A stretch of 64,000 nt of DNA from Pleurocapsaceae cyanobacterium CSU_1_1 (GTDB lineage Bacteria > Cyanobacteriota > Cyanobacteriia > Cyanobacteriales > Xenococcaceae): the NCBI GenBank assembly GCA_012034765.1, contig JAAUOU010000001.1:1-64000 (forward strand). Reading direction: 5' to 3'. The notes below the pieces were generated by a model that did no database searches, was not told the origin of the DNA, and saw nothing but the letters and a program-made list of their open reading frames with translations. A program made the position numbers and the translations under genes. This document shows positions 33,593 to 39,714 of the stretch, in pieces. Numbering within the stretch: position 1 is the first letter of the stretch; each line of letters begins with the position of its first letter.

Positions 33593-34815
33593 ATGAATCA
33601 AAAAGTAGATAAATCATCTCGACCACTGCCACCACCGCCACCATCAACAATTGGTAGAACTAGCAATTCATTGCCTGAAACACCAGTCAAGGCTGAAAAT
33701 GATGCTGTTAAATCGCCAGTCTCAGTACCAGGAAACAAGCCACAAAGGTCTTCTGGTCAACCTACTTTGGCATATATCATCAAACAAGCATACGACAAAG
33801 GATACTCAGATGTTCACGTGGAGTGGGAGAAGTGCCGCGAATGCGCGATCGCGGGGAGATGGCGTTAACAGAATATCCCCAAACCGATCGCAATACTTTT
33901 ATGAGTTGGCTACACGAGATTTTGAGCGATCGCGAAGTAGAACAATTCAAACGAGAGCTAGAATTTGATGGGGCAACTCAGTATGAGTTTGCCAGGGTGA
34001 GGATTAACGTTTTTGACACTTTGCGAGGGCCTGCATTAGTGATGCGTTTGATTCCCTTGAAAATTTTGACGATGGAACAATTGGGTTTACCCCCAGTGTT
34101 TAAAGATATTTCTGATCAGCACAAGGGTCTAATTCTAGTCACTGGGCCGACTGGTTCAGGTAAATCGACAACCATGGCTGCAATGGTGGACTATATTAAC
34201 AGCGAACATGCCAAGCACATTATTACCATCGAAGATCCGATTGAATTTGTACATCGTAGTAAACGCTGTTTAATTAAACAACGAGAAGTCGGCATCAATA
34301 CCCACAAGTTCGATCATGCCCTTAAAGCAGCATTGCGGGAAGACCCTGATATTATCTTAATTGGGGAGATGCGCGATCGCGAAACGGTCAATACGGCGCT
34401 CAAGGCAGCTCAAACAGGTCACTTAGTTATGGGAACATTGCACACCAACAGTGCGGTTAAAACTATCGAAAGGATTTTAACCCTCTATACTGCTGAAGAA
34501 CAGGACGCAATGCGCGTGGCAATTTCTGAATCCCTAGTGGCTGTGATTTCCCAGGGATTATGCCGTACCACTGATGGCAAGCGAGCTGCGTATCATGACA
34601 TCATGGTCAATACAGAAACCGTCAAAGAATATATCAAACAGGGTAAATATGATGAGATTCACAACCTTATGTTGGATGGAGAATATGACGGTATGATTAC
34701 TACCAATCAAGCTCTTTTTAGTCTTTATGAAGAAGGTAGAATTAGTGAAGATGTAGCTATGGAAATGTCTCCGACAGCCAATGAAATGGCAATGATGCTC
34801 AGAGGAAGAATTTAA
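33593..34815 (+). CDS. pilT: type IV pilus retraction ATPase PilT (one missing base)
   Basis: This hexameric motor depolymerises type IV pili for twitching motility and phototaxis. One G is missing at GG 33820-33821. Restoring it reads SDVHVGVGEVPRMRDRGEM and gives about 407 residues. Features in order are a proline-rich N-terminal extension (six prolines in a row with neighbours), the PAS-like N-domain, Walker A GPTGSGKSTTM, an Asp box (IITIEDPIEFVH), Walker B DPDIILIGEMRD, and the His box GTLHTNSA. It belongs to the PilT rather than the PilB group, because it lacks the four-cysteine zinc motif. No pilB or pilC lies next to it here. Confidence 0.92.
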
Positions 34816-34952: not shown

Positions 34953-35711
34953 ATGATAAATGTTCTACCTCAAGTATTTAAGGGTATAGCCTTGTTTACA
35001 CCAGGGGGAGATCTGATTTATGGCATTGATCCGAGTAAAAAAAACCAATGGCATGCTCATTTATGCCATGGTTTACAAAAGATCCTTAATTTAGCTGAGT
35101 CTCCCCATTTTTTAGTACCTCAATATACAGCGACAGTAGAACGTTGGTTAGACCCCTCAACTCATCAGCTCAAAACTATTGCCGAAATCTATCCTGCGGT
35201 ACAACAATACATCCCTTTGTTGCAAGTATTATTTGAACTCGATCCAAAAACTGAATGGCAAATTGCTCCTTGGCAAGAAAACTACTGTCATCGAGCGGTT
35301 ATTGAGACTTATAAACCCCATTTTCCCCAGCTTTGGCAGCGACAAGATTTAGTTGTTCGTCTCGATCCTCAACAGTCAGCTAAATTGACTGATGAAGACT
35401 CTAAGACATTTGAGCATCAAATCAAACTAGCTAATTCACCCCAAATCGAAGGATATAATCTGCGGTTATTTATTTCTAGCGCTCACGATCGCGCCGAAAA
35501 AACCTTGAGTAATCTGCATCAGTTATTAGAAGAGAGATTGACTAATCCCTACAGCTTGAAAGTTATTGATGTTGCTAAAAATCCCGAACAGGCAGTAATA
35601 CACCAAGTTTTAACTACCCCTACTCTAATTCGAGTTTCTCCTGAACCTATTAAACGTATTGTGGGACAGCTTGACGATATCTCTAGAGTCTTAAAAATTA
35701 TTTCTAGTTAA
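34953..35711 (+). CDS. KaiB-like domain protein
   Basis: The 252-residue product has a C-terminal KaiB/SasA-type thioredoxin-like domain (about residues 168-250): YNLRLFISSAHDRAEKTL, PYSLKVIDVAKNPEQA and TTPTLIRVSPEPIKRIVGQL follow the KaiB core closely. The first 160 residues are an unrelated domain that I do not recognise, with several conserved-looking tryptophans and no membrane segment. No histidine kinase part is present, so it is not SasA. It lies 137 bases after pilT on the same strand. KaiB-like domains mediate clock-protein contacts, but a clock role here is unproven. A link to pilus control is inference from adjacency. Confidence 0.8.
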   Translation: MINVLPQVFKGIALFTPGGDLIYGIDPSKKNQWHAHLCHGLQKILNLAESPHFLVPQYTATVERWLDPSTHQLKTIAEIYPAVQQYIPLLQVLFELDPKTEWQIAPWQENYCHRAVIETYKPHFPQLWQRQDLVVRLDPQQSAKLTDEDSKTFEHQIKLANSPQIEGYNLRLFISSAHDRAEKTLSNLHQLLEERLTNPYSLKVIDVAKNPEQAVIHQVLTTPTLIRVSPEPIKRIVGQLDDISRVLKIISS

Positions 35712-37341: not shown

Positions 37342-37808
37342 TCAAAAATTAAATATCTGTAAATATCTGTCGTTAAGATTAGGTTAATCTTTTTCTGATT
37401 ATTCAATTGCCATAAATGCGATCGTTTGGGTAAGAAAAATAAGTTAAATTAAAAATCCTACACCCTGTGATAGAGTTCTCTAAAAAATCAATTTGTTAAC
37501 TTCTAAACAAGCACTTCAATTAACAGAACTTAACAAGGCTGGCAAAACATGCAAACACAGATATCAAAACTAAAATTAAAATTTACTCCTAGATTTGTCC
37601 AACTCTGGAACAATTCCAGGGCAATCATTGGTTTCTTAGCTGCTGTATTTAGTCAAAATGAAAATTAGTCAAAACGTTTTTCGACAGTTTAGCATCACAT
37701 GACTTTAAATTTTATTTGTAACCAAGTTATCTGAAACATAGTACTTTCTTCGATTCATTTCTAATCTCAACAACTAATTCCAATTCCCCATACATAATTA
37801 AACTAAGC
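37342..37808. other. intergenic region between queA and the cytochrome b-like gene
   Basis: About 470 AT-rich bases. One HIP1-related site lies near 37417. A 39-codon open frame at 37549-37668 is listed separately as a possible small protein. I see no repeat family member or terminator. Confidence 0.35.
37549..37668 (+). CDS. possible 39-residue small protein
   Basis: An ATG-initiated frame encodes a basic N-terminus (MQTQISKLKLKFTPRF) followed by a short hydrophobic stretch (AIIGFLAAVF) and a TAG stop. An AAGG lies about 11 bases upstream. The pattern resembles small single-pass membrane proteins of cyanobacteria, but no family is recognised. It may be chance in AT-rich DNA. Confidence 0.25.
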   Translation: MQTQISKLKLKFTPRFVQLWNNSRAIIGFLAAVFSQNEN

Positions 37809-38480
37809 ATGAACTCTCTTCAATACAATTTCGTGTTGCGACGAACCGCAACTATTTTGTCAATTGTCATCTTAACTTTGGCAATTATTGCAGCTATATC
37901 TGGCATATTAATTGGATTTTACTACGAACCTGTTGCGGGAGATGCCTATCAATCCTTAAACCAGATCAATAATTCCATATCTAACGGTTGGTTAATCTAC
38001 AGCCTGCATGACTTAGCTGGGAATGGAACTATCGCTGTGGCGCTAATTCAGATTGTAGTCATGTTTCTCGGTCGACAATTTAGACGCAGTTGGTTAACGG
38101 GATGGATTAGCGGGATTTTGCTAACCTTATCAACTATTGGTTTAGGTTGGACAGCAATGATTCTTAGCTGGGATCAATTAGGATACTGGCGTTTAAAAGT
38201 CGAATTGGGAATTATTGATTCTGTTCCCATTGTTGGCACATTCGTGAGTAATCTACTCACAGGTGGCAGCGGCATCAATACCACCACAATTGTGCATTTT
38301 TACACGCTTCATAGCTATGTTTTATCTACAGCTGCGATCGCTTTAGCAGTAGTCCATTTAGTAGCTTTAGTTATTCACGAACAGGAACAAAAATATCTTT
38401 TAGTCCAGCAGCTAGAAAAGCTTTCAAAATCTATTTACTTAGAAGAAAAGCTTTCAGAAAATACCACTACAAAAGCTTAA
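37809..38480 (+). CDS. cytochrome b6-like (N-terminal cytochrome b) protein
   Basis: The 223-residue membrane protein has four helices matching cytochrome b6: A (residues 14-38), B (61-88), C (95-121) and D (161-189). Family landmarks are present, including WDQLGYWRLKV (cytochrome b6 has a PWDQVGYWAVK-type loop) and GTFVSNLLTGG before HFYTLHSYVL. His67 and His168 keep the 101-residue spacing of the heme bp/bL ligands, and His183 is the second helix-D ligand. Its helix-B partner, expected at residue 81, is glutamine. The c-type heme cysteine is also absent. It may bind one standard b heme. Only 17 bases separate it from crtW, so they are probably co-transcribed. Confidence 0.8.
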   Translation: MNSLQYNFVLRRTATILSIVILTLAIIAAISGILIGFYYEPVAGDAYQSLNQINNSISNGWLIYSLHDLAGNGTIAVALIQIVVMFLGRQFRRSWLTGWISGILLTLSTIGLGWTAMILSWDQLGYWRLKVELGIIDSVPIVGTFVSNLLTGGSGINTTTIVHFYTLHSYVLSTAAIALAVVHLVALVIHEQEQKYLLVQQLEKLSKSIYLEEKLSENTTTKA

Positions 38481-38497
38481 TTTGCTTGAAATAATTT

Positions 38498-39289
38498 ATG
38501 TTTTTTAATCAATTTTTGTCCAGGCTGACTTTTGCAAATATTAATTTAACAACGGGAATTATTGTTAGCACAACTTTAATCTTATTTTGGTTTGTTAGTT
38601 TAATTGTCTTATTAGCGTTAGATATTAATACAATACCTCTATACTTAATTATTTTAGGTATTTTCTTGAGAATTTTTTTACAGACAGGACTGTTTATTAC
38701 TACTCATGAGGCAATTCATGGAACTATTTACCAAAATTCCCTAATCAATGATGCTTTTGGCTATATCACTTCTTTTTTGTACGCAATACTACCCTATAAA
38801 ACATTGGCAAAAAATCATCAATTACACCATCGCCATCCTGCTAGCGAAAAAGATCCAGATTTCAATTGCTTGCATTCAAATAATTTCTTATTTTGGTATC
38901 TAAGCTTTATGCAAGAGTATCAAAAAGGTAGACAATTTTGGATTTTGTTGGTAGGGATGACAATTATATTCTGCACATTTATTTGTTTACATATCTCTAT
39001 CATTAATATATTTTTGTTTTGGATAATTCCTATTTTAATTAGTTCTGTGCAACTGTTTACCTTTGGTATATTTTTACCCCATCGCCAACGAGATGAAGAA
39101 TATAGCGATCGCCATCGAGCCAGAAGTAACAATTACTCAGTGTTTTGGTCTTTTATTGCCTGTTACCATTTTGGCTACCATTGGGAACATCACCAATATC
39201 CAAATTTACCTTGGTATCAACTTCCTGTAGCTCGTCAAAAAATATTAATTGAGCAAAACAATACTTCAGATAGTCTTTTAACAGGCTAA
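38498..39289 (+). CDS. crtW: beta-carotene ketolase CrtW / fatty-acid desaturase superfamily
   Basis: This diiron membrane enzyme would add 4-keto groups to carotenoids (echinenone, canthaxanthin). The 263-residue product has the desaturase histidine boxes: HEAIH at residues 70-74, HQLHHRHP at 107-114, and a late FGYHWEHHQYPNLPWYQLP block. The last is characteristic of CrtW and differs from acyl-lipid desaturases. Several membrane segments surround the boxes. It follows the cytochrome-b6-like gene by 17 bases. A ketolase call is favoured; other carotenoid or lipid substrates are possible. Confidence 0.82.
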   Translation: MFFNQFLSRLTFANINLTTGIIVSTTLILFWFVSLIVLLALDINTIPLYLIILGIFLRIFLQTGLFITTHEAIHGTIYQNSLINDAFGYITSFLYAILPYKTLAKNHQLHHRHPASEKDPDFNCLHSNNFLFWYLSFMQEYQKGRQFWILLVGMTIIFCTFICLHISIINIFLFWIIPILISSVQLFTFGIFLPHRQRDEEYSDRHRARSNNYSVFWSFIACYHFGYHWEHHQYPNLPWYQLPVARQKILIEQNNTSDSLLTG

Positions 39290-39309
39290 TCTATAGACGA
39301 GCGCATGAT

Positions 39310-39714
39310 TCAAACTCTTAACCATTTAAGTATCATTGCTGGTAAATCTATTCTCTGTCTAATTTGAGGATTAATACAAATGTGGCGGGTTTGAGCTTTA
39401 ACTAAAATTTGCTCTAAATGATCGACAGGGGATATTTGATAGGCGATCGCAAATTCACTATCATTAATTAAACTAGCAACTAAGCTAATTTGGATTCGAT
39501 CTCCACAAAAAAGAGGACGCAAAAAATCAATTTCTGCATGAACAATCGGTAAGGCAATCTTTCCTTCTTGGATCATTTGCTTGAGGCTAATTCCTCCCCA
39601 AATCAAAGACTCTTCATAGGCTTGGTGGCAGATTTCCAATCCTTTGGCAAAATAAACCACTCCTGCTGCATCGGTATCGCTTAAATAAATTCGTCGTAAA
39701 AAATCAAATTTCAT
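39310..39714 (-). CDS. 1,4-dihydroxy-2-naphthoyl-CoA thioesterase (hotdog fold)
   Basis: This small hotdog thioesterase probably releases DHNA from its CoA ester in phylloquinone (photosystem I quinone) synthesis, as cyanobacterial Slr0204 does. The 134-residue product has RRIYLSDTDAAGVVYFAKGLE near the N-terminus, with the catalytic aspartate in DTDAAG (about residue 14-16), followed by the hotdog helix CHQAYEESL. PIVHAEIDFLRPLFCGDRIQI is the usual following strand pair. The length fits. It is convergent with crtW. A generic 4-hydroxybenzoyl-CoA-type thioesterase is the alternative. Confidence 0.83.
   Translation of the reverse strand: MKFDFLRRIYLSDTDAAGVVYFAKGLEICHQAYEESLIWGGISLKQMIQEGKIALPIVHAEIDFLRPLFCGDRIQISLVASLINDSEFAIAYQISPVDHLEQILVKAQTRHICINPQIRQRIDLPAMILKWLRV

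Follow-up and report, generated by a model that had tools for sequence, protein, structure and literature searches.

We found that the window, by which we mean the whole 64,000-nucleotide stretch of DNA that was analysed, encodes a cytochrome-b6-like membrane protein followed at once by a CrtW-type ketolase, and that this cytochrome belongs to a family in which one of the two bis-histidine heme sites of cytochrome b6 is lost. We read it, with a probability of about 0.5, as a one-heme cytochrome b6 paralogue that has its function apart from the b6f complex and that became linked to crtW in a single Pleurocapsa-type genus, where both genes are inherited together. The features on which the analysis is built are the following:

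37809..38480, + strand: cytochrome-b6-like membrane protein, 223 aa, a four-helix bundle with a long C-terminal helix
38007..38009, + strand: codon of His67, aligned with PetB His86, p-side ligand
38049..38051, + strand: codon of Gln81, aligned with PetB His100, n-side ligand lost
38310..38312, + strand: codon of His168, aligned with PetB His187, p-side ligand
38355..38357, + strand: codon of His183, aligned with PetB His202, n-side ligand whose partner is lost
38498..39289, + strand: CrtW-type beta-carotene ketolase, 263 aa, His motifs complete

Between the stop codon of the cytochrome frame and the ATG of the ketolase frame lie 17 bases, and the coordinates thereby bear out the spacing given in the first-pass annotation, a note made earlier from the sequence alone. 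A promoter and terminator scan of positions 37342-39400 returned counts no higher than those of shuffled sequences, and hence we claim no promoter. The neighbours of the cytochrome in the window are genes for queuosine synthesis, the ketolase, a thioesterase and ribosomal genes. Elsewhere in the window, a type IV pilus ATPase-like gene (33593-34815, PilT-like by eye) appears to be split between two frames near 33823-33868, perhaps through a sequence error, and positions 34953-35711 encode a 252-residue protein with a C-terminal KaiB-type domain (Pfam KaiB, 7e-23, residues 171-247), the N-terminal part of which is without a Pfam match.

The cytochrome matches Pfam Cytochrome_B (4e-26) and aligns with PetB (1vf5_A, 7e-32) without a gap, residues 19-185 lying on 38-204. 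An AlphaFold2 model, built with 46 of the 81 family sequences, reached a pLDDT of 90.2 and a pTM of 0.81. Its best fold match is 2e74_A (Z 20.7, rmsd 3.0 over 189 residues), which ties with other cytochrome b6 chains, and Foldseek placed 7r0w_A on top (4.2e-10). Alignment, model and fold matches thus support the four-helix fold of the cytochrome b6 kind that had been proposed. Searching 386 genomes of the phylum furnished 33 family genes in 32 genomes, all at 230 bits or more and, the window's own gene excepted, between 230 and 310 bits. No match fell between 230 and 118 bits, the PetB-like matches starting at 118 bits or below. Judged by these sequences, the family is cyanobacterial and sharply separated from PetB. 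The search for relatives on phages gave no match, and that on plasmids gave one distant match, from Aureibacter, with 27% identity over 60% of the query.

A study of two cytochrome b6 proteins of Gloeobacter reportedly exists, going by its title. Among open-licence PMC papers we found no description of the family, and the consulted passages of PMC6616624 mention no petB paralogue. In the window's genome a single PetD-type match occurs, on contig C63 and close to the genuine petB. Since all six genomes examined hold exactly one such match, no spare subunit IV was found for the cytochrome. This petB, an essential gene (C63, around 33914, locus L002), reads in two frames; the switch falls close to the place of codon 85 in the PetB of a relative and is probably an assembly or base-call error. 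Another genome of the phylum (G051, family f6), 99% complete, came without even a PetB match in the 386-genome search.

The axial heme ligands of cytochrome b6 are PetB His86, His100, His187 and His202, as stated in an excerpt of PMC5730185. The alignment puts His67, Gln81, His168 and His183 of the window's protein on these four positions. The ligand spacings reported in the first-pass annotation (101 residues from His67 to His168, 15 from His168 to His183) are correct, and the glutamine it saw at residue 81, where a histidine is expected, does align with PetB His100. We take His86 and His187 to be the ligands of the p-side heme (b_p) and His100 and His202 those of the n-side heme (b_n); PetB Arg83, Arg87, Arg103, Gly37 and Gly135 serve the hemes as well.

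Two sets of sequences were used to follow these residues. The set of 81 rows consists of the best 80 of 92 relatives plus the window's gene, and its count for Gln81 leans high because the relatives were found partly with a peptide that holds this residue. The set of 40 rows was taken from loci of the whole-genome search above 200 bits and was not picked by the Gln81 motif; it contains one gene twice, leaves out genomes G074 and G289 (no locus), and is accompanied by one further row that fits neither the family nor the PetB class. Residue 81 is Gln in 81/81 of the first set. In the second it is Gln in 37 rows, Glu in two (one gene counted twice), Asp in one and His in none, compared with His in 18/18 PetB rows. 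Whether the glutamine is conserved had been left as a check, and the answer is that a non-histidine is fixed across the family. The other three positions are mostly kept. Residue 67 is His in 80/81 and 39/40 rows, residue 168 is His in 74/81 (Asn in seven) and 39/40 (Asn in one), and residue 183 is His in 77/81 (Asn in four) and 40/40. The seven rows with Asn168 are scattered over three places of the tree as drawn, and the four with Asn183 over two. All eight crtW-paired cytochromes retain His67, Gln81, His168 and His183. Thus, the window's cytochrome has the p-side bis-His site (His86/His187 equivalents), and the n-side site (His100/His202 equivalents) is absent, with residue 81 being Gln, Glu or Asp in 40/40.

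The surroundings of the hemes have changed as well. The position of PetB Cys35 (residue 16) is Cys in 18/18 PetB rows and non-Cys in 40/40 family rows, so that the cysteine for the covalent heme c_n is missing from all of them. Gly37, found in 18/18 PetB rows, is replaced by Ser or Ala in 40/40 family rows, and Arg103, likewise 18/18 in PetB, by Val or Ile in 41/41 (Val in 81/81 of the best 80 of 92 relatives plus the window's gene). Arg at the Arg87 position occurs in none of 41 and none of 81 rows, Arg83 is kept in 8/41, and the Gly135 position is Ala in 37/40. Because Arg87 is never Arg, Gly135 is mostly Ala and Asn168 appears in 7/81 rows, it is not certain that every member carries even one heme. 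The picture that we propose is a cytochrome that would keep the b6 fold and, usually, the two histidines of the p-side heme (b_p/b_L), that no longer has the sites for heme b_n and the covalently bound heme c_n, and that would accordingly carry a single heme. According to a passage of PMC5730185, cytochrome b6 binds b_L first and b_H second, which makes a form with only b_L plausible. A family that keeps one heme site in most members, and the other in none of those examined, shows by a natural experiment what the b6f core can do without.

The second frame is, by its sequence, a beta-carotene ketolase of the CrtW type with 4-ketolation as the predicted reaction. It scores 273.8 bits (E 1.2e-81) against NCBIfam CrtW (NF045690), below the equivalog cut-off of 350, and therefore we call it CrtW-type; the paired CrtW of G070 (271.7) and the unpaired one of G395 (256) also stay below. 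Ten histidines of the diiron motifs are invariant in 32/32 aligned CrtW rows, and His206 is His in 28/32. The CrtW tree was made with 32 rows selected from the CrtW loci, leaving out the fragment of G406. No solved structure related to the ketolase by sequence was found at E up to 0.1.

Both genes were searched for in 27 genomes of the window's GTDB family. Within the genus, both are present in 8/13 genomes, adjacent and on the same strand in 8/8, and neither is intact in the other five; the rule that both genes are intact or neither is holds in 13/13. Two of the five pair-less genomes are incomplete (G404, 82%; G407, 81%), and in G404 there remains a frame of 116 codons whose start resembles crtW, with a transposase-like gene (by eye, locus L211) behind it. 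Where we read the paired stretches, the genes are separated by a few tens of bases or overlap, the start codons being predicted. Neither the pair, which recurs in eight genomes of the genus, nor the missing ligand, residue 81 being non-His throughout the family, is a product of chance. The flanks of the pair vary. A 4HBT thioesterase lies beside it in the window, G402 and G399, with ribosomal genes beyond in the window and G399; an SDR gene, a BON gene and a gene without a Pfam match lie beside it in G405 and G070, the last of these also in G403; other genes flank it in G408. The Pfam searches of the flanks covered the SDR and BON copies of G070 and the SDR of G399. Genes of the SDR and BON kinds frequently have a role in stress. 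In the CrtW tree a single branch separates the ketolases of the pair (7 rows, 99/97) from the rest, and in the cytochrome tree the paired cytochromes group together (8 rows, 99/59). Both trees join the window and G402 with G399 and set G403 with G070 and G405, repeating the main groups. This agrees with a single origin of the pair but is no proof of it. The close pairing of cytochrome and crtW that the first-pass annotation saw therefore holds within the genus, where the pair stays tight in a changed neighbourhood, and not outside it, where the two genes are unlinked.

Two observations were made beside the paired loci. In G399 the paired cytochrome is preceded, on the opposite strand, by an alpha/beta-hydrolase (L196:6420-7463, Abhydrolase_1 6e-13) different from the one described below for the wider family, and a frame resembling it is found in L004. 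In G408 a SinI-type restriction endonuclease (L195:7354-9404, Pfam RE_SinI 1e-95) lies near the pair, with a methyltransferase-like gene (by eye) beside it.

Across the 386 genomes, CrtW lies within 3 kb of only 2/33 family genes, both in the window's genus, and in the 12 genomes elsewhere that carry both genes on one contig, 316 kb or more separate them. Outside the genus, the closest CrtW relatives are those of G394 and G395, and no such cytochrome was found in either genome. The regular neighbour is another gene. An alpha/beta-hydrolase precedes the cytochrome on the same strand in 25/33 cases (24 within 450 bases; copies in pieces in G278 and G334), and in 63/82 loci when 81 family loci and one PetB locus, some cut by contig ends, are counted. 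L037:5150-5896 is an example of this gene, which adjoins the cytochrome far more regularly than crtW does. The first-pass annotation had named a regular position beside unrelated genes as refuting its link to the ketolase, and this is what is seen outside the genus. The hydrolase is PGAP1-like (8e-07) and gave no match in NCBIfam. As a candidate for a fixed partner of the cytochrome it is limited, too: it is found in 28/32 cytochrome genomes, being absent from the window's own (G000), G070, G074 and G338, and it also occurs in 32 genomes without the cytochrome. An N-extended subfamily of the cytochrome has a PadR-like gene upstream (G386, G392, and similarly in Symploca, where PadR-like is by eye), and G399 carries a second, similar cytochrome copy at a contig end.

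The proposed check of co-occurrence gave a divided answer. CrtW is present in 24/32 cytochrome genomes and absent from 8/32, and the cytochrome is absent from 48/72 CrtW genomes. Family f6 is presumably Nostocaceae. In its 42 genomes, both genes occur in 17, the cytochrome only in seven, CrtW only in one and neither in 17, an association with a Fisher p of 2e-5 when kinship is ignored; the association of the cytochrome with the hydrolase (22, 2, 1 and 17 in the same order) is stronger, p being 1e-8 with kinship again ignored. The co-occurrence in f6 could point to a wider link between cytochrome and CrtW than our favoured view allows.

A single past rearrangement may have juxtaposed two genes that have simply been carried together since, and the confinement of the pair to one clade fits this idea, as does the position of the cytochrome elsewhere, behind the hydrolase (25/33) or, in the N-extended forms, behind the PadR-like gene. 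We consider it a possible but somewhat unlikely explanation, given that the pair is kept in 8/8 with differing flanks and short gaps or overlaps where read, and that both genes or neither are intact in 13/13 genomes of the genus. The protein might also be a heme-poor scaffold, in which the b6 fold holds chlorophyll, carotenoid, quinone or only a partner protein and the Gln/Glu/Asp81 and His183 pair serves the ligand. Both residues are indeed retained although the bis-His site is gone, the positions of Arg87 and Arg103 are non-Arg in 41/41 with Arg83 kept in only 8/41, and His168 or His183 has become Asn in 11/81 (again the best 80 of 92 relatives plus the window's gene), at three and two places of the tree, respectively. 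However, most members and 8/8 paired genes keep the p-side His pair, and we regard a scaffold as unlikely. Less probable still, and offered as speculation, is a b6 fold turned pigment-binding ketolase partner, whose n-side pocket (Gln/Glu/Asp81, His183) would hold chlorophyll or carotenoid and which, in Pleurocapsa-type cyanobacteria, would have a ketolase gene of its own attached to it.

The idea from which the analysis started is that the cytochrome is a dedicated electron donor that passes, for example, quinol electrons to the diiron centre of CrtW. The tight pair conserved in 8/13 genomes of the genus and the association across f6 speak for it. In desaturase-type diiron enzymes the His clusters are on the cytoplasmic side. 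With only the p-side heme left, the cytochrome is thus a poor candidate for a donor to such a centre. In b6f the electron crosses the membrane from b_p to b_n, as described in passages of PMC9720722. The n-side site, by which electrons would leave towards the cytoplasm, is missing from every member examined. According to an extract of PMC2288588, diiron carotenoid hydroxylases need ferredoxin and its reductase, from which it follows that some donor is required, and we counted this in favour of the donor. Against it stand the CrtW genomes without the cytochrome (the 48/72, plus G394 and G395) and the eight of 32 cytochrome genomes without CrtW. Moreover, a family that usually sits beside an unrelated hydrolase (25/33) is unlikely to have dedicated electron supply to carotenoid synthesis as its general role. 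The donor function inferred in the first-pass annotation is therefore unsupported, and we hold it to be quite improbable.

In summary, the reading that we prefer is a one-heme b6 paralogue with a role of its own, and the p-side-only heme together with the CrtW relatives that lack the cytochrome leads us to see the pair as probably a lineage-specific cassette for stress or photoprotection, rather than an electron-donor system. The probable stress role is suggested by a small number of neighbouring genes, present in part of the genomes. Cytochrome and crtW would probably be co-expressed as part of the response to light or oxidative stress. The ketolase would most likely be fed by the general ferredoxin pool, as presumably are its neighbour-less relatives. 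The cytochrome would most likely have a parallel job, be it a p-side redox or quinone-linked role or that of a membrane partner. The paired form makes it easy to examine whether such a partner can exist for a diiron ketolase.

Among known systems, ExtP, the b-type cytochrome of selenite and tellurite reduction operons (NF040969), is likewise b6-like and is matched at E 3.6e-33, but the score of 115.2 bits lies below the equivalog cut-off of 290, and the window neighbours (queuosine synthesis, ketolase, thioesterase and ribosomal genes) are of another kind. With PetB the cytochrome shares the four-helix fold, about 30% identity and the p-side His pair. It differs from PetB in having no equivalents of His100, Cys35, Gly37 and Arg103, in scoring 116.7 against the NCBIfam cytochrome b6 cut-off of 325, and in being a gene separate from petB and without an adjoining petD. 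Compared with the CrtW beta-carotene ketolase, the window's enzyme has complete His motifs and matches at E 1.2e-81, yet at 273.8 bits against the cut-off of 350 it represents a divergent subfamily, whose pairing with a cytochrome is limited to one genus.
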